A stretch of DNA of 64,000 nt, from assembly GCA_020850325.1 (NCBI GenBank), contig JADZEW010000022.1, positions 1 through 64,000 of the forward strand. Reading direction: 5' to 3'. The notes under the pieces were generated by a model. The model did not search any database, was not told where the DNA came from, and worked only from the letters and a program-made list of their open reading frames with translations. This document shows positions 23,380 through 36,689 of this stretch, in pieces (positions within the stretch are counted from its first letter, which is position 1; each line of letters begins with the position of its first letter). The translations under genes and the position numbers were made by a program. The stretch comes from Methanoregulaceae archaeon (lineage in GTDB: Bacteria; Armatimonadota; Fimbriimonadia; Fimbriimonadales; Fimbriimonadaceae).

Positions 23380-25224
23380 ATGGGACGACTTCGACTGTGT
23401 TTGATTCGGCTGCTGGCCGTCCTCTTTGGGGCGGTGCTGGCGGCTGGAGCATGGTCCGACTCTCGCGACCTCGACTTCGATCTGCAGCCGCTCTTCGAGG
23501 CGAAGGGCAGTCCGATGCACGTCACGCCGTACCTGGTCACGGTCGGAAATCGAGGACCCGAGGCCCGCGGCAACGTGGTGGTGCAGGGGCAGGGGTTCGC
23601 GATGCGGTATCCGATCGAGCTGCCCCGCGGCACGCAGAAGCGGCTGATCATCTATCCGACCGAGCCGCAATACCGGATGAGCCCGACGAGCTACATCCTT
23701 GAGACCAATCAGGGGAACTTGCGGCTCCAGCGGGGCACGAACTACGAGGCGCAGACGTGGTACGCGCTTGCGATTTCGGATACCTCCGGCGTGGCGAGCT
23801 TCCTGCAGCAGGGCGGTGAATACCAGAAGGCGATGATCGACGCTTACGGGCGACCCGGACGGTTGCCCGATCGGGCGGTAGGTTATCTCGGTTGCCGACT
23901 GGTGTTGCTCGGCGATGGCGCGGAGCGGATGTCCGATCCCGAGGTTCGCGCCCTCCAAGACTACGTGCTGATGGGTGGAAACGTGGTGATGCTCGGCGGA
24001 GCTTCGACCCCGCTCTTGAGCGACCCGCGTTGGGCGAGTTGGGTGCCCATTCGGCCCGAGCGGCCCAAGACGCTCACCGCGAAAGGGGCCGCAAAGATGG
24101 GCTTGCAGCCGAAGGGGACGTTCACGCTGACGCCAGGCACGCCGGTAGCCGGGGCGAAGCTCCTGATGTCCTACCAGAACGAGGCGCTCGCGGTCGAGAA
24201 AGCCGTTGGGTTGGGACGAGTCGTGTACCTCTCGGTCAATGCGTTCGAGGAGCCCGCACGGTATTGGGCAGGATGGCAGCCGTTCTTCCGAGCGCTGTCG
24301 TTGACCGAGGGCGGCCACGAGTTTGCGAAACAGTTGGGTTTGACCAACACGGACGGATACAACTCGACGCTTCCCGCAATGTACTCGATGTCATCCAACG
24401 GACCGACGGTGCCGGGCGATCCGTTCCAAGCCCAGATGCCGGCCACCGGCACCATCCTCGCGATCCTGCTGATCTACTTCATCTTGGTGGTGCCCGTGAA
24501 CCTGCTCCTGCTGCGCAAGATGGGCCGCGGGGAACTCGCTTGGATCACCTCCCCGATCATCAGCATTGTGTTCGCGGGGATCTTCTTCCGCTTTGCGGCC
24601 GGGCTGTATGCCGCCGACTTGAGCACCGCCACGCGGGGACTTTGGGTTGTCGATGAAGCCGCCGAGTCGGGGCAGTTCCTCGGCAGCACTCAGATGTTCT
24701 TCCCCCGAGGCGGGGCGTACGACTTGGGGCTCGACAGCGTGGAACACATCGTCTCTCGCCGTGCCTCGGACTACGGTGCGGACGACGACCGGCTCTTCAA
24801 CGACCTGAAGGCGATCGATGACGGACGGATTCGCGTGCCGGGCATGCAGGTGAGAAATCTTAGCTTCCACGAGTTCGGCTTCCAGCAACGGATGCCGGGA
24901 GGGAAGATGTTCGAGCTTTCCGCAGACGGGATGTCGGTGACGAACCGCTCGAACTTGACGCTCTCCAACGCCCGGCTGCTGCTCGACGGCAAGGCTTACA
25001 AACTGGACGATCTCAAGCCCGGCGCGACGGTGCGGCGTGGCGCCGCGGCTGAGCTATGGATGGACTGGCAAACCATGATGAACATGACCAAGAACTCGCC
25101 GCGGTTCGCAGTGACCGGCGAACTGCCAGCTTCCGTGCGGCCGGGGCCGCAGGTTGGTCGGATTGTGCCCAGCTACCACCGGATTCAGCTCATGGCGTTC
25201 GGCGCGATCGAGGGGGCAAAGTGA
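23380..25224 (+). CDS. membrane-associated protein of an ABC exporter cluster
   Basis: 614 aa; signal peptide; internal TM segment TILAILLIYFILVVPVNLLLL; upstream of and overlapping ABC permease. Confidence 0.65.
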   Translation: MGRLRLCLIRLLAVLFGAVLAAGAWSDSRDLDFDLQPLFEAKGSPMHVTPYLVTVGNRGPEARGNVVVQGQGFAMRYPIELPRGTQKRLIIYPTEPQYRMSPTSYILETNQGNLRLQRGTNYEAQTWYALAISDTSGVASFLQQGGEYQKAMIDAYGRPGRLPDRAVGYLGCRLVLLGDGAERMSDPEVRALQDYVLMGGNVVMLGGASTPLLSDPRWASWVPIRPERPKTLTAKGAAKMGLQPKGTFTLTPGTPVAGAKLLMSYQNEALAVEKAVGLGRVVYLSVNAFEEPARYWAGWQPFFRALSLTEGGHEFAKQLGLTNTDGYNSTLPAMYSMSSNGPTVPGDPFQAQMPATGTILAILLIYFILVVPVNLLLLRKMGRGELAWITSPIISIVFAGIFFRFAAGLYAADLSTATRGLWVVDEAAESGQFLGSTQMFFPRGGAYDLGLDSVEHIVSRRASDYGADDDRLFNDLKAIDDGRIRVPGMQVRNLSFHEFGFQQRMPGGKMFELSADGMSVTNRSNLTLSNARLLLDGKAYKLDDLKPGATVRRGAAAELWMDWQTMMNMTKNSPRFAVTGELPASVRPGPQVGRIVPSYHRIQLMAFGAIEGAK

Positions 25225-28616: not shown

Positions 28617-30227
28617 ATGGTATCGACCATGAACGCCGAACTATTACTTGGAGACGAAGCCGTCGCTTGGGGAGCCATCGATTCCGGGATTGGAGGAGCT
28701 TTCTCCTACGCCGGAACCCCCGCCACTGAGATTCTTGAGACCATCCAGATCGTGGCTCCGCACATCTGGTCCAAGTGGTCCGCGAACGAGAAGGTCGCCT
28801 ACGAGGAAGCCCTCGGCATGTCGTACGCGGGCAAGCGGGCGCTTGTCTCGATGAAGCACGTCGGCCTCAACGTCGCCGCCGACCCGTTCATGAGCTCCGC
28901 CCTGACCGGTGCGGTGGGCGGGATTGTCCTCGCGGTCGGCGACGATCCCGGTATGCATTCCTCCCAGAACGAGCAGGACTCGCGCGTGCTCGCCGAGTTC
29001 GCGAAGATCCCCGTGTTCGAGCCCTGCAACCAGCAGGAGTGCTACGACATGACTCGCACGGCGTTCGCCCTTTCGGAGCAGTACGGCCTGCCGGTGATGA
29101 TCCGGCTGGTTACACGATTAGCTCACAGCCGGTCCACCGTGCGCCTCCGCCCCGACGACGAACGCAACCGTAGCCGTACCCGGCTGCCGCTGCCCGACCC
29201 GAACGATTGGGCGCTCGTACCCGTGAATGCTCGCCGCCGTTACCGCCGATTGCTGGGATTGCAGGGAGATCTGATCGCTGAGTCCGAGCGCTCGCTGTAC
29301 AATCAACTGACGATCCGCGGCCGGCGAGGCATCATCTGCGCGGGCATCGCCTGGAACTACGTGCGCGAGTCGCTCGGCCCCGACCCCGAGGACTCGTTGC
29401 TGCGGATCGGACAATATCCGATCCCGGTGGGGCTGATCCGCCAAATGGTGGATCACTGCGACGAGATCATCGTCGTCGAGGACGGCTATCCGGTGATCGA
29501 GCAACATCTGACCGGGATGCTGGGCGTGCCCGGCAAGTCGATCCGGGGTCGCCTAGACGGCACGCTGCCCGCCGATGGTGAACTGCTTCCCGAGATCGTG
29601 GCGCGAGCATTGGGGGTGCCGGTCGATCTGCCGATTCACGCCGATGCGATCGTGGCCGGACGTCCGCCTCAATACTGCAAGGGCTGTCCGCATGCGAACT
29701 CGATGAACGCGCTCATCGATGCCACCTCGGGTTACGAGCAACCTCTCCTCTTTAGCGATATCGGGTGCTACGCGCTCGGCATCATGCCGCCCTATCGGTC
29801 GGTGCATTCGGCGGTGGACATGGGCGCCTCGATCGGTATGGCTCATGGCGCGTCTCGGGCGGGAGCGTTCCCGGTGCTGTGTACGATCGGCGATTCGACC
29901 TTCGCCCACTCCGGCATGACGCCTCTCCTCGGCGCAGTGCTGAACGACGCGAACATCACCGTGCTGATCCTCGATAACTCGACAACCGCGATGACCGGCG
30001 CGCAAGACTCGATGGCGTCGGGGGAGCAGTTGATGGAGCTTGTGAAGGGCCTCGGGGTCAAGCACTTGCAGCTGATCGAGCCGTTGCCCAAGAACCACGA
30101 AACGAATGTGGCCGCGATCAAAGAAGCGATCGCCCACGAGGGTCTGAGTGTGATTGTGGCGAGGCGTCCGTGTATCCAGATCAAGCCTAGAAAGCTCGCG
30201 GCCAAACTGCCGCAGGTGGAGGCCTAA
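28617..30227 (+). CDS. indolepyruvate:ferredoxin oxidoreductase alpha-like subunit lacking C-terminal ferredoxin domain
   Basis: 536 aa; N-terminal pyrimidine domain, TPP region 'CKGCPHAN...SDIGCYALG...MGASIGMAHGAS..GDSTFAHSG'; ends at RRPCIQIKPRK with no CxxCxxC. Confidence 0.85.
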   Translation: MVSTMNAELLLGDEAVAWGAIDSGIGGAFSYAGTPATEILETIQIVAPHIWSKWSANEKVAYEEALGMSYAGKRALVSMKHVGLNVAADPFMSSALTGAVGGIVLAVGDDPGMHSSQNEQDSRVLAEFAKIPVFEPCNQQECYDMTRTAFALSEQYGLPVMIRLVTRLAHSRSTVRLRPDDERNRSRTRLPLPDPNDWALVPVNARRRYRRLLGLQGDLIAESERSLYNQLTIRGRRGIICAGIAWNYVRESLGPDPEDSLLRIGQYPIPVGLIRQMVDHCDEIIVVEDGYPVIEQHLTGMLGVPGKSIRGRLDGTLPADGELLPEIVARALGVPVDLPIHADAIVAGRPPQYCKGCPHANSMNALIDATSGYEQPLLFSDIGCYALGIMPPYRSVHSAVDMGASIGMAHGASRAGAFPVLCTIGDSTFAHSGMTPLLGAVLNDANITVLILDNSTTAMTGAQDSMASGEQLMELVKGLGVKHLQLIEPLPKNHETNVAAIKEAIAHEGLSVIVARRPCIQIKPRKLAAKLPQVEA

Positions 30228-30229
30228 CC

Positions 30230-33178
30230 ATGCGACACGACATCATCATCGCCGGCGTAGGCGGGCAGGGCATCCTCACTATCGCCCGCGTACTGTCTCT
30301 AGCGGCGATGGCCAAGGGACTCCATGTTAAGCAGGCCGAGGTCCATGGCATGTCGCAGCGCGGCGGCGCCGTGTACTCGCACTTGCGCATCTCGGACCGC
30401 GAGATCTTCAGCGACTTGATTCCGGCTGGGCAAGCGGACATGATCCTCGCGATTGAGCCGCTGGAGGCGTTGCGCTACGTCTCGATGCTTCGCGAAGATG
30501 GCACCGTTGTCGCAAGCACGAACGCCGAAGTCAACATTCCCGACTACCCGGCGATCGAGCGCGTGCTCGCCCATATCGCCGACTTCGAGAGCCACGTGGC
30601 GGTCGACATGGAGAAGCTGGCCCGCGCGGCGGGCGGCGTGCTGTCGGCGAACATTGTGGCGCTGGGTGCGGCCTCGCTGTACTTGGGCTTTACGATCCAT
30701 GAGTTGCAGGCCGCGGTCGAGCAGCTGTTCGAGGTCAAAGGCGAGAAGATCGTGCAGACGAACATCCGCGCGCTGCGCTTCGGCCGCACGGCGGCTTCGG
30801 CTTACCGCGAGGCGCTGGAGCGCGGAGTCCACGCGCAGCATGCCCGGGGTTGGATCGCGACGCTCTCGCCTGAGCACCTCGCCGCTGAGGATCTCGACTT
30901 CGCCGAACTCGATGTGGCGGTCGATGAAAGCCGCCTGACGGGGGCCGAGGCCCACGCCTTCGAGAGCCTGCTGCGGACGGCGTACGACGAGGATCGACGC
31001 CAACTGTACGAACATGAGGTGTACCGGCTGATCGAGTTGGTCGGGGCGATCACCCCGCCCCGCCATGCGTTTATCGCCAAGAGCTCGACCATCGCCGAGG
31101 ACGTGCTGAACGCGTACCCGGGGGACAAGGTTGTCATCAAGCTCGTTTCGACCGCGGTGGTTCACAAGACCGAAGCGGGAGCCGTGCAGATCGTGCCCAA
31201 AGACCTCGACCGGGTGCGCGCCGAAATCGAGCGAATGATCACGCGCCATGCGCCCAAAGGGCCAGTTGCCGGGGTGTTGGTCGTCGAGTTTGTCGAGCAT
31301 GCCCACGGCCTGGGGTCGGAGCTGTTTGTCGGCATTCGGGCCACCCGCGAGTTCGGTCCGGTGATCGCGGCGGGGCTGGGCGGCGTGCAGACCGAGTATC
31401 TGGCTTCGAAGATGCGTCCCGGCGTGGCGGTCGCCAAGGCAGTTGCGTGGGATATCGATGCCGAGGGGTTCCTCGAACTGTTCAAATCGACGGCGGCTTA
31501 CGACATTCTGTCGGGGCGGGTGCGTGGCCATGACCGGGTGGTCTCGGATGGCGAACTGCTACGGTGCTTCCGCGCGTTCATCTCGATCGCCCGCCAGTTC
31601 TGCGTCGATCGCGGCGAAGAAGGTCCGGACATCAACGAACTCGAAGTCAACCCGTTCGCCTTCGTGAACCAGCACTTGGTGCCGCTCGATGGGCGAGGAT
31701 CGTTGCGCCCGGCCGCGAAACCGAGACCTGCACGGCCCGAGGCTGCCGCGAAGCACCTGCTCGAACCCGAGCGAATCTCGTTGGTCGGGGTTTCCGCAAA
31801 GCCGGGGAGCTTCGGACGCGTGATTCTCGGCAATGTCCTCGAGAGCGGCTTCGATGCCGACCGAATCACGATCATCAAGCCGGATGAGGCGGAGTTCGAA
31901 GGCATCCGTTGCGTGCCGACCCTAAGCGATTTGCCTGACCCGGTCGACTTACTCGTCATCACCGTGCCCGCCAAGGCGACGCCCGAGATCATCCGCGAGG
32001 CGAACGCCTCGGGCAAGGTGCGCAGCGGGATCATCATCTCGGGCGGGGCGGGGGAGGCCGAAGGCTCGGAGGCGATTGGTGAGGAGATCGCGGCGGCGAT
32101 CCTCGAGGGGCGCGCGTTGCCGAACGGCGGGGCCGCGTTCTTGGGGCCGAACTGCATGGGCGTGCGCTCGCGGCCGGGACTCTACGATACATTCTTCGTG
32201 CCCGAAGACAAGCTTCCGATGCGCCGTGGGGGCGAACCGCAGCCGATCGCGTTAGTTTCGCAGAGTGGTGCGTTCATCGTTTCGCGGCTGAGTTCGCAAA
32301 CCGAACTCGATCCCCGATTCGCGATCTCGATTGGCAATCAATGCGACCTGACGGTGTCGGACATGGTGCGCGCGGTCGGGCTCCGCGATGACATCTCCGT
32401 GGTTGGCGTGTACCTGGAAGGGTTCATCGATCTCGACGGCGCCGACATGCTGAGGGTCGTTGCCGAGTTGCGCGAGCGCGGCAAGTCAGTGGTGTTCTAC
32501 AAGGCGGGACGCACCGAATCGGGCCGCTCGGCGGCGGCGGGGCATACCGCAGCGGTCGCGGGCGATTACGACATCTGCCAAACCGCGATGAGCTTGGCTG
32601 GTGCGTTTGTTGCCCAGGACTTCCGGGAGTTTGGCGAGGCGCTCGAGCTGGCCGTCCACCTGACGGGACGAACCGTCGGCGAGGGGCGGGTGTTTGCGCT
32701 GACGAACGCCGGCATGGAAGCGGTCGCGATGGCGGACAGCGGGGTACGGCTGAACGCACCCTCGGAAGCGCTGCACTGCGAACTCGATACGCTGCTGACG
32801 ACTCACGGTCTTCGCGGCCTGGTGAGTGCGCGGAACCCGCTTGATCTCGCTCCGGCGGCGGGTGAGGCGGCGTACGATGAACTGGTTCGTGCGGCACTGG
32901 ATTCGGCTGAGGTGGATGCGGTGATCGTCTCCTGCGTACCCCTGGCTCCGAGTCTGCACTCGTTGGCGGCTGATCTCGACCACCCGACGTCGTTCGTTCA
33001 ACTGGCGGCAAAGTGGCGCGCGCACTCGGAGAAGGCGATCGTCACCGTGTTCGACGGTGGTCCGGAGTACGATGCTCTTCGGGCGGGGATCCGCGCGGCG
33101 GGGCTGCCGGTGTTCCGCTCCGCCGACGATGCGGCGCGGCTGCTGCACCGCTGGATCAGCCAGATGGCATCGCGGTAA
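30230..33178 (+). CDS. fusion: indolepyruvate oxidoreductase beta (IorB) + ATP-grasp acyl-CoA synthetase beta + CoA-binding/ligase alpha (ADP-forming acyl-CoA synthetase)
   Basis: 982 aa; 'DIIIAGVGGQGILTIARVLSLAAMAKGLHVKQAEVHGMSQRGGAVYSHLR'; ATP-grasp 'VVIKLVSTAVVHKTEAGAVQI'; ligase 'LVSQSGAF', 'GHTAAVAG'. Confidence 0.88.
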   Translation: MRHDIIIAGVGGQGILTIARVLSLAAMAKGLHVKQAEVHGMSQRGGAVYSHLRISDREIFSDLIPAGQADMILAIEPLEALRYVSMLREDGTVVASTNAEVNIPDYPAIERVLAHIADFESHVAVDMEKLARAAGGVLSANIVALGAASLYLGFTIHELQAAVEQLFEVKGEKIVQTNIRALRFGRTAASAYREALERGVHAQHARGWIATLSPEHLAAEDLDFAELDVAVDESRLTGAEAHAFESLLRTAYDEDRRQLYEHEVYRLIELVGAITPPRHAFIAKSSTIAEDVLNAYPGDKVVIKLVSTAVVHKTEAGAVQIVPKDLDRVRAEIERMITRHAPKGPVAGVLVVEFVEHAHGLGSELFVGIRATREFGPVIAAGLGGVQTEYLASKMRPGVAVAKAVAWDIDAEGFLELFKSTAAYDILSGRVRGHDRVVSDGELLRCFRAFISIARQFCVDRGEEGPDINELEVNPFAFVNQHLVPLDGRGSLRPAAKPRPARPEAAAKHLLEPERISLVGVSAKPGSFGRVILGNVLESGFDADRITIIKPDEAEFEGIRCVPTLSDLPDPVDLLVITVPAKATPEIIREANASGKVRSGIIISGGAGEAEGSEAIGEEIAAAILEGRALPNGGAAFLGPNCMGVRSRPGLYDTFFVPEDKLPMRRGGEPQPIALVSQSGAFIVSRLSSQTELDPRFAISIGNQCDLTVSDMVRAVGLRDDISVVGVYLEGFIDLDGADMLRVVAELRERGKSVVFYKAGRTESGRSAAAGHTAAVAGDYDICQTAMSLAGAFVAQDFREFGEALELAVHLTGRTVGEGRVFALTNAGMEAVAMADSGVRLNAPSEALHCELDTLLTTHGLRGLVSARNPLDLAPAAGEAAYDELVRAALDSAEVDAVIVSCVPLAPSLHSLAADLDHPTSFVQLAAKWRAHSEKAIVTVFDGGPEYDALRAGIRAAGLPVFRSADDAARLLHRWISQMASR

Positions 33179-33378: not shown

Positions 33379-35022
33379 ATGAGCGAACTCGAGACTCGAT
33401 TAGCCGGCTTCCGCCGGAGGGTACGTGTGCTACAAGCGTGGCGTGGCCTCGCTCGCGGAGCGGCTTTGGGCGGGCTGGTGGCTCTTGCGCTGGCGGCGCT
33501 CGACTTCTTCAATGTTTGGTACACCGGCTGGTGGGGCGTGGCTCTGCCGATCTTGGCCGGGGCGCTCGGCGGCGTTATCTACGGATTAACGCGCAAGGTC
33601 TCAACCGCGGCGCTCGCCGACAGTATCGACCGTCGCGCCCACTTGCAGAATCGCGTCGCGACCGCGACGGAAGACCACCACGAGCAGTTTGCCGAGGCGC
33701 AGCGTGAAGACGCGCTGGCGCGCCTGGATGGGCTGAAGCCGTCGGGCGTGTATCCGGTTCGGTTCACCCGTTGGCACACCGGCTCCGTTGCTTTGAGCCT
33801 GGCCGCGGTAGCGGTTGTTCTGCTGGGCAACACCCCGATGCTGCTTTCCGCCCAGGAGCGGCAGGATCGCGAAGAGTTGAAGAAGACCGGTCAGGCCATC
33901 GAGCGGGTGGCTAAGCCCGTGCTCGAACGGCCGGATGAGGATTCGACTAGGGTCGCCAAGGAACTCGCCCAGAAGTACGACGCCTTCGGCAAAGACCTCC
34001 AGCGGGGTCGCATGCCCATGGAGAAGGCGATGGAAGAGGCCAACAAGTTGGCCGCCGAAGCCGAGCGCGCGACCAAGGAGCAAGCCGAGCGGGCCGAGAT
34101 GATCGTGTCGAAGGCGCAAGATACGCTCCTGAGGGAGGCGTTTGAGGACGCGGCTCGGGAATCGGGGATGAACCCGGACGACCTTGCCAACCTGTCGGCG
34201 GCCGAGATGCAGGCGTTGTCTCAGTTGACCGAGTCTGAGGCGGCATCGCGGGAATCGAGCCTCAACGAGCAAATGGCCGACCTCGCCAAGCAACTTCGCG
34301 AAGGGAAGAACGAAAAGGGCGAGACCCTGACCCAAGCCGAGCGCGATGCGCTCGCCAAGGAGATGGAGGCGCTCAAGAAGAACCTGCAAGATCTTAAGCT
34401 CAGCCAGAAGGCGCGTGAGTTCCTAAACCGCCTGATGAACGATCCCGATTACAAGGAACTGATGAAGATCGCGCAGGAACTGCGCAAAGCCAGCCAGGCC
34501 GCTCAGCAAAACCCCGATCGTCCGCCGCTGACCAAGGAACAGATCGAGGAGATGAGCAAGAAGCTCGAGGAACTCGCCGAGCGGCTCAGGAATGACGAGG
34601 ACCTCAAGGCGTTCATCGAAGAACTGAAGAAAGCCCTGAAGGAGGGCCAAGGGCAGTGCGACTCGGGCGGCATGTGTATGGGCCTCGGCGGATTGCTCCC
34701 GATGTGGGGACCGAGTGGCCCCGGCCAAGACCAGTTCTTCCGCGACATTGGCCAGGTGCCTCAGAACGAGCAGGAAGAGGACATCCAGGCGAAGCCGGAT
34801 GTAAAGGCCGTGAAGGGACAGCGCCAGGAGACCGGCGACGAAACGTACATGGAGATCAAAGGTCCGGCAAGCATCGGTGACCGAAGCAAGACGCCCTACT
34901 TCAAGGTGATGCCCAAGTATCGCAAGCAGGCCGAGGAAGCGCTTAACAAGGAGCAGATCCCCAAAGAACACCAAAAGCGGGTGCGCGATTACTTCGACTC
35001 GCTGAACCGGGGGAAACCGTGA
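33379..35022 (+). CDS. membrane protein with long charged coiled-coil region, in MoxR operon
   Basis: 547 aa; two TM segments then Glu/Lys/Ala-rich helices. Confidence 0.7.
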   Translation: MSELETRLAGFRRRVRVLQAWRGLARGAALGGLVALALAALDFFNVWYTGWWGVALPILAGALGGVIYGLTRKVSTAALADSIDRRAHLQNRVATATEDHHEQFAEAQREDALARLDGLKPSGVYPVRFTRWHTGSVALSLAAVAVVLLGNTPMLLSAQERQDREELKKTGQAIERVAKPVLERPDEDSTRVAKELAQKYDAFGKDLQRGRMPMEKAMEEANKLAAEAERATKEQAERAEMIVSKAQDTLLREAFEDAARESGMNPDDLANLSAAEMQALSQLTESEAASRESSLNEQMADLAKQLREGKNEKGETLTQAERDALAKEMEALKKNLQDLKLSQKAREFLNRLMNDPDYKELMKIAQELRKASQAAQQNPDRPPLTKEQIEEMSKKLEELAERLRNDEDLKAFIEELKKALKEGQGQCDSGGMCMGLGGLLPMWGPSGPGQDQFFRDIGQVPQNEQEEDIQAKPDVKAVKGQRQETGDETYMEIKGPASIGDRSKTPYFKVMPKYRKQAEEALNKEQIPKEHQKRVRDYFDSLNRGKP

Positions 35023-35999: not shown

Positions 36000-36689
36000 A
36001 TGTGTGCTCGCTACACGATGCGCACGTCGGCGGAAACGCTGTTTGCCCTCTTCGAACTCGATGAGGCGGAAGAGCTTGCTGCAACACCGCCGATCGTTCG
36101 CCCGACCGACGTCGCGGCGGTAATCGTCGCCGGCGAATCTGGCCGCGTCGGTCGAATGATGCGTTGGGGTCTAGTGCCTCACTGGGCGAGCGATCTGAAG
36201 ATCGGGGTCAAGATGATCAACGCGCGGAGCGAGACCGTCTTCGAGAAGCCCGCGTTTCGTGAGTCGATCCTGAAGCGGCGGTGCCTTGTGCCAGCGGACG
36301 GGTTCTTCGAGTGGACGGACATCGTGGTCGAGGAGACTGACCTGTTCGGCGAGCCGCGAAAGAGCAAGTCGCGAAAGCAACCCCAGCTGATCACCGTCAC
36401 CGATCAACCGGTGTTCGCCTTCGCGGGGATGTACGACCGGTGGAAGGACCGCGCCACCGGTTCTGTCGTCTTCTCGTACACGATCCTCACGTGCGAGCCG
36501 AACGAGGTGGTGGTTCCGATTCACGACCGAATGCCGGTGATCCTGCGGCAGGATCGGCATGCGGCATGGCTTGACCAAGGGCTCACCGATCCGGAGGGCA
36601 TCGCGGCTCTCATGGAGCCGGTTTCGGCCGCCGTGACGCGCGTGTTCGCCGTGCCCTCGGCCGACGATCCGACGAGGCTTAGCGCATGA
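36000..36689 (+). CDS. SOS response-associated peptidase (SRAP/YedK/HMCES family)
   Basis: MCARYTMR N-terminus with catalytic Cys2, 'RWGLVPHWA', 'NARSETVFEKPAFRESILKRRCLVPADGFFEW'. Confidence 0.93.
   Translation: MCARYTMRTSAETLFALFELDEAEELAATPPIVRPTDVAAVIVAGESGRVGRMMRWGLVPHWASDLKIGVKMINARSETVFEKPAFRESILKRRCLVPADGFFEWTDIVVEETDLFGEPRKSKSRKQPQLITVTDQPVFAFAGMYDRWKDRATGSVVFSYTILTCEPNEVVVPIHDRMPVILRQDRHAAWLDQGLTDPEGIAALMEPVSAAVTRVFAVPSADDPTRLSA

Follow-up and report, generated by a model that had tools for sequence, protein, structure and literature searches.

A conserved gene fusion of an IorB-type oxidoreductase subunit and an ADP-forming acyl-CoA synthetase, encoded next to iorA in Fimbriimonadaceae and other bacteria

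Introduction

A gene within the first 64,000 nucleotides of contig JADZEW010000022.1 (this entire stretch, from a member of the Fimbriimonadaceae, is referred to as the window) raises the question of whether an indolepyruvate oxidoreductase (IOR) subunit and an ADP-forming acyl coenzyme A (acyl-CoA) synthetase (ACD) have been joined in one protein, and what such a protein would do. The gene, designated iorB-acd, lies immediately downstream of iorA. A sequence-only reading of the window had drawn on the archaeal scheme in which IOR generates an aryl-acetyl-CoA that separate ACD enzymes convert to the aryl acetate and ATP, and had suggested that here the two steps are covalently coupled. The association of the two enzymes on which that suggestion relied stands: in P. 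furiosus, ACS2-alpha is in an operon with IOR (PMC3942289), and a report on Clostridia places IORs near ADP-forming ligases (PMC13285125). The activity of the iorA/fusion system, its aromatic substrate, the ATP-forming direction, the physical complex, and channeling are what we infer.

Results and Discussion

One reading frame encodes IorB and a complete ACD

The iorB-acd gene is a single uninterrupted frame of 982 codons plus a stop, as the sequence-only reading had proposed. An IorB (POR gamma-type) domain is followed by a variable linker and then by a complete ACD in the beta-alpha order. The four Pfam domains expected from that reading were found in the predicted order (Table 1), all scoring far above their cutoffs. 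The N-terminal region of about 190 amino acids is indeed IorB-like; it matched Pfam POR in residues 11 to 186 and passed the NCBIfam model NF005324 ("indolepyruvate oxidoreductase subunit beta") in residues 1 to 191 (257.9 versus a cutoff of 222), with a score against TIGR03334 that fell below the cutoff (147.2 versus 205.8). Every ACD subdomain was found in the remainder of the protein with Pfam, NCBIfam, and Foldseek. However, this part matched the equivalog models for acetate, 3-hydroxypropionate (3HP), and 4-hydroxybutyrate ACDs far below their cutoffs, as exemplified by TIGR02717 (acetate--CoA ligase; residues 508 to 973, 212 versus 567) and NF045492 (3HP-CoA ligase; 203.5 versus 1300). 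Therefore, the substrate cannot be transferred from a family name. Conservation was lowest in the linker, where residues 218 to 235 had a majority-residue frequency of 0.42, compared with 0.67 and 0.73 on the flanking sides.

An assembly join or frameshift between two genes, suspected by the sequence-only reading at 30880 to 30960, would account for such a frame without any true fusion. Homologues are continuous across this region in many independent assemblies, the in-frame fusion is repeated in separate phyla, and conservation is evident on either side of the join, leaving an artefact with almost no probability. The ratio of nonsynonymous to synonymous substitution (dN/dS) was 0.04 for the fusion; relative to the closest congener, it was low for the IorB (0.032), ATP-grasp (0.015), and alpha (0.059) parts. 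Purifying selection on the fusion is thus strong.

The same architecture is found well beyond the host. Full-length homologues in other Fimbriimonadaceae were 52 to 96% identical. Within the phylum Armatimonadota the fusion was present in 10 of 292 genomes, all from this one family (in one of the 10 it is split across two contigs, and in another it is cut by a contig end). A scan of named genomes recovered 48 loci, with IorB and ACD in one open reading frame at about 40 of them, distributed among Fimbriimonadaceae, Phycisphaerae, Deltaproteobacteria/Myxococcota, one metagenome-assembled genome (MAG) of Acidobacteriota, and one MAG labeled Cyanobacteria. Sampling of 200 genomes from the class Phycisphaerae yielded 14 with the fusion. 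None of the 349 matching records in a plasmid collection covered 80% of the query. Thus, the fusion is real and recurs in several bacterial phyla, among them a few members of the Acidobacteriota. The fusion on the Cyanobacteria-labeled contig (L077) is very near that of a Phycisphaerales locus (L075), and this contig is likely mis-binned or mislabeled.

Catalytic residues are conserved and the predicted fold is that of an ACD

The residues expected of a working ACD were identified by alignment: a phosphohistidine on a swinging loop, its paired glutamate, and the histidine of the ATP-grasp domain. In the alignment to chain 4xyl_A (ckcACD1 alpha), E730 is matched to residue 213 and H772 to residue 254. 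H312 aligns with the conserved histidine of the ATP-grasp beta subunit (4xyl_B, 8wzu, and 9y43), which has been described as the second phosphate carrier of ACDs (PMC3942289, PMC11494057). All three residues are invariant in 35 fused proteins, which rules out the loss of catalytic residues that the sequence-only reading had considered.

A single-chain AlphaFold2 model of the fusion protein, built from 35 sequences, had a mean predicted local distance difference test (pLDDT) score of 87.6 and a predicted template modeling (pTM) score of 0.83. Just two stretches had pLDDT values below 50, residues 41 to 45 in IorB and the longer loop at residues 762 to 776 that carries H772. The low confidence of this loop matches what would be expected of the swinging phosphohistidine loop described for Nmar_0206 (PMC11494057). 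In Foldseek, the modeled ACD half aligned over 764 columns with 9y43, the N. maritimus 3HP-CoA synthetase (TM score by target, 0.84); for the IorB half, the match was OorC (3g2e, chain C; TM score of 0.83). The beta-before-alpha order had been regarded as unusual, but 9y43, the closest solved structure, is ordered alike, and we therefore rejected the order as a novelty.

PatZ-type acetyltransferases have an ACD-like fold and appear among both the sequence and structure matches, which raises the alternative that the ACD half is a regulatory or protein-modifying domain rather than a working synthetase. However, the Pfam scan of the fusion protein found no GNAT acetyltransferase domain, the three catalytic residues are invariant, purifying selection is strong, and the nearest relatives are true synthetases. 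This alternative is very improbable.

IorA accompanies the fusion and lacks a ferredoxin domain

The predicted adjacency to iorA extends to the other fused loci. In the window iorA ends 2 bp ahead of the ATG of iorB-acd, and each of the 37 fused loci whose flanks are long enough has iorA directly upstream. It is the only recurring neighbor; clustering of 378 neighboring open reading frames revealed no other conserved one, and a wider conserved operon was rejected. A search of 61 relatives with the IorA model gave matches in 9, of which 8 are fusion carriers of the host family. The ninth (G062) comes from a different family, and its IOR is of another kind. Within the host family, IorA was thus found only in fusion carriers.

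The TPP-binding core is present in IorA (PF02775 and PF01855). TIGR03336 was by far the best-scoring family, even though its cutoff was not reached (505.7 versus 650.9 bits) and the match stops at model position 538 of 595. The ferredoxin four-cysteine motif CxxCxxCxxxC was found in none of 38 homologous IorA reading frames; judged from these frames, the C-terminal ferredoxin domain of IorA is lost. Four other cysteines (C354, C357, C384, and C519) are conserved without exception in 39 sequences. We take these to be the ligands of one proximal [4Fe-4S] cluster, as in the POR family, and their conservation fits a single cluster of this kind. With one cluster and no ferredoxin domain, IorA is likely to depend on an external ferredoxin.

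The fusion probably arose once from a three-gene operon

In sampled Acidobacteriota and in Myxococcota (the phylum to which NCBI assigns locus L058), ACDs of this subfamily are encoded by a separate gene next to iorB. Twenty such loci were read. Sixteen have iorA, iorB, and acd as separate genes in that order, 2 are truly fused (L130 and L131), and the other 2 (L117 and L132) are incomplete or have no IOR on the stretch. Locus L086 is an additional unfused trio. Ten Acidobacteriota and Myxococcota genomes had at first appeared to hold both parts in one frame, but in the 9 that were read an in-frame stop lies between separate genes, and all 10 were counted as unfused.

A midpoint-rooted tree was built from 61 ACD sequences. 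All of its 38 fused proteins grouped with a single unfused ACD (L091) in one clade with 100% support in the Shimodaira-Hasegawa-like approximate likelihood ratio test (SH-aLRT), inside which the Fimbriimonadaceae formed one subclade (99% SH-aLRT). A first tree, rooted on the ACD of G062, was set aside in favor of this larger set because the very long branch of that sequence made the root unreliable. Two state changes suffice on the midpoint-rooted tree, and the simplest reading of their direction is a change from operon to fusion followed by one loss. The fusion therefore probably arose from a three-gene operon, iorA-iorB-acd. Since no fused protein lies outside this clade, a single fusion event probably spread between phyla. 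The mixture of phyla inside the clade implies interphylum transfer, although single records may reflect mis-binning of MAGs.

The unfused member of the clade (L091, 6280 to 8592, genome G378) has no IorB or IorA nearby and probably reflects secondary loss of the oxidoreductase part. Two Phycisphaerae loci (L082 and L083) encode close ACD relatives without IOR genes alongside. A different family of this order has a gene for a 792-amino-acid beta-alpha ACD and, 13 bp downstream of it, one for a 904-amino-acid IorA-ferredoxin-IorB fusion (L090, 1982 to 7088, G062:C20). This IOR-ACD pair is an independent arrangement with a distant ACD.

Proposed function

The architecture, the catalytic residues, the linkage to iorA, the loss of the ferredoxin domain, and the kinship to the iorA-iorB-acd operon together favor, with moderate confidence, the interpretation that IorA and the fusion protein constitute a two-subunit aryl-type 2-oxoacid:ferredoxin oxidoreductase that recovers thioester energy as ATP through its own ACD. 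IorA, with thiamine pyrophosphate (TPP), and the IorB domain would decarboxylate an aryl-type 2-oxoacid (indolepyruvate, phenylpyruvate, or hydroxyphenylpyruvate) with CoA to yield acyl-CoA and CO2, and the single [4Fe-4S] cluster would pass the electrons on to a separate ferredoxin (Fd). The ACD half would convert acyl-CoA and phosphate (Pi) to the acid, CoA, and phosphorylated H772, whose loop would then swing so that the phosphate could pass via H312 to ADP. The net reaction would be 2-oxoacid + ADP + Pi + 2 Fd(ox) -> acid + CO2 + ATP + 2 Fd(red). CoA would be recycled within the complex and so have only a catalytic role. Tethering would hold the oxidoreductase and ACD sites together. It is conceivable that acyl-CoA and CoA are handed to the tethered ACD without release, which would represent covalently coupled energy conservation in respiring bacteria with CoA in a catalytic role only, but this extension is tentative and we consider it doubtful.

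In favor of this function, PaaA and PaaC were found in none of 14 tested members of the family, and thus these bacteria would have no phenylacetyl-CoA ring-oxidation route to consume the CoA ester.

Several observations weigh against the proposed function. All 14 tested family members, including the host, have a heme-copper oxidase, whereas archaeal IOR has been described as oxygen-sensitive. The host genome contains candidate ferredoxin-type frames, but none was assigned as the ferredoxin partner, and no route for reoxidizing the partner was identified. ACD genes without a nearby IOR occur in a few genomes (L082, L083, and L091). Furthermore, the aromatic specificity of IorA is weakly indicated, because IorA scores below the TIGR03336 cutoff and, according to one paper, no sequence motif reliably predicts indolepyruvate use (PMC13290082). 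Alternatively, the same mechanism could act on nonaromatic substrates, such as branched-chain 2-oxoacids or still others, and the name IOR would then reflect no more than homology. The difficulty of predicting the substrate range of these oxidoreductases from sequence (PMC13290082) is in keeping with this. However, IorB passed its family cutoff and no other 2-oxoacid oxidoreductase family scored better for either subunit, and we regard nonaromatic substrates as unlikely.

The direction of flow is a further consideration, since ADP-forming synthetases are reversible and 9y43, like 8wzu, is named for the acid-to-CoA reaction. If the system ran in reverse, the ACD half would spend ATP to activate an aryl acid and IOR would carboxylate the activated acid, yielding the 2-oxoacid, so that aryl acids could be salvaged to make aromatic amino acids. 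The maripaludis case is counted in support, and one report indicates that Bacteroides IOR may operate in this way; however, the Bacteroides case as described there has an AMP-forming ligase, which favors the carboxylating direction (PMC13285125). Prephenate dehydratase is encoded by 13 of the 14 tested family members, including the host, and also by almost every fusion-free relative tested, which counts against salvage. The reduced ferredoxin for carboxylation would also be costly in a host with a heme-copper oxidase. We therefore consider reverse flow rather unlikely.

Other features of the window

The features of the iorA/iorB-acd locus are collected in Table 1. Elsewhere in the window, genes for a MoxR-type AAA ATPase, a DUF58 protein, a BatA/VWA protein, and a large VWA-GATase-like protein are consecutive between 35019 and 42162, a row that also includes a gene for an SOS response associated peptidase (SRAP) at 36000 to 36689. 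The frames at 23380 to 25224 (614 amino acids) and 33379 to 35022 (547 amino acids) had no Pfam match at an E value of 0.001.

Table 1. Coordinates of the iorA/iorB-acd features in the window, with the supporting matches
Feature	Position	Strand	Basis or remark
iorA	28617..30227	+	TPP-binding catalytic subunit, 536 aa; TIGR03336 match
iorB-acd fusion gene	30230..33178	+	982 aa; full length kept in other genomes
IorB (POR gamma-type) domain, residues 1-190	30230..30799	+	PF01558 (6.6e-36), NF005324; model resembles OorC 3g2e_C
Linker, residues 218-235	30881..30934	+	Low conservation
ATP-grasp domain (ACD beta), residues 251-489	30980..31696	+	Pfam ATP-grasp_5 (2.3e-24); holds H312-K313 and ELEVNPF
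H312-K313	31163..31168	+	Aligned with phospho-accepting His of ACD beta subunit (4xyl_B, 8wzu, 9y43)
CoA-binding Rossmann domain (ACD alpha subdomain 1), residues 515-646	31772..32167	+	Pfam CoA_binding_2 (4.1e-16)
Succ_CoA_lig flavodoxin-like domain (ACD alpha subdomain 2), residues 672-807	32243..32650	+	Pfam Succ_CoA_lig (5.3e-31); E730, H772
Predicted swinging phosphohistidine loop, residues 762-776, with H772	32513..32557	+	Low pLDDT; alignment to 4xyl_A
C-terminal ligase-CoA domain (ACD subdomain 5), residues 808-982	32651..33175	+	TIGR02717 508-973; Foldseek to 9y43, 4xz3_C

Implications and comparison with known systems

In the manner of a Rosetta stone, the fusion links an ACD to an oxidoreductase of the IOR type. 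It also offers a two-protein system in which one can measure how oxidative decarboxylation is coupled to ATP synthesis at the substrate level. A scheme best known from hyperthermophilic archaea would here be found in bacteria with a heme-copper oxidase and without the ferredoxin domain, as a fusion that has apparently been transferred from phylum to phylum. Related lineages have the operon in either fused or unfused form, which allows a clean comparison.

Subdomain shuffling is a recognized feature of the ACD superfamily (PMC11494057), and IOR-ACD operon linkage and the beta-alpha order were already known. No description of a covalent IorB-ACD fusion was found in the open-access literature, the part that was searched, and thus the covalent, conserved, and apparently mobile fusion is, provisionally, what appears to be new.

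Thermococcales IorAB and the P. furiosus IOR-ACS2alpha operon share the homology of IorA and IorB, and the operon likewise ties IOR genetically to the alpha subunit of an ACD (PMC3942289). However, their ACD subunits are separate proteins, whereas the Fimbriimonadaceae IorB carries both ACD parts on its own chain, and Fimbriimonadaceae IorA lacks the C-terminal ferredoxin domain of Thermococcales IorA. Clostridial clusters likewise place genes for IOR or a related oxidoreductase near a PF13607 ligase as a proposed route of acyl-CoA disposal, and in C. difficile the ligase adjoining a different oxidoreductase takes aryl acetates; in contrast to the fusion, oxidoreductase and ligase are separate genes there (PMC13285125).

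The N. maritimus 3HP-CoA synthetase (9y43) and the Ca. Korarchaeum ACD1 (4xyl series) have the same subdomains, catalytic histidine, glutamate, and ATP-grasp histidine as the ACD half, but are only about 23 to 26% identical to it in structure alignments and carry no IorB domain. The Magnetococcus 2-oxoglutarate:ferredoxin oxidoreductase (6n2n and 6n2o) has homologous alpha and gamma-type domains and, like IorA with the fusion protein, is presumably a minimal oxidoreductase reliant on a ferredoxin from outside the enzyme. The Magnetococcus enzyme, however, carries its gamma-type domain on the alpha subunit and has no ACD, whereas in Fimbriimonadaceae the corresponding domain is joined to the ACD.
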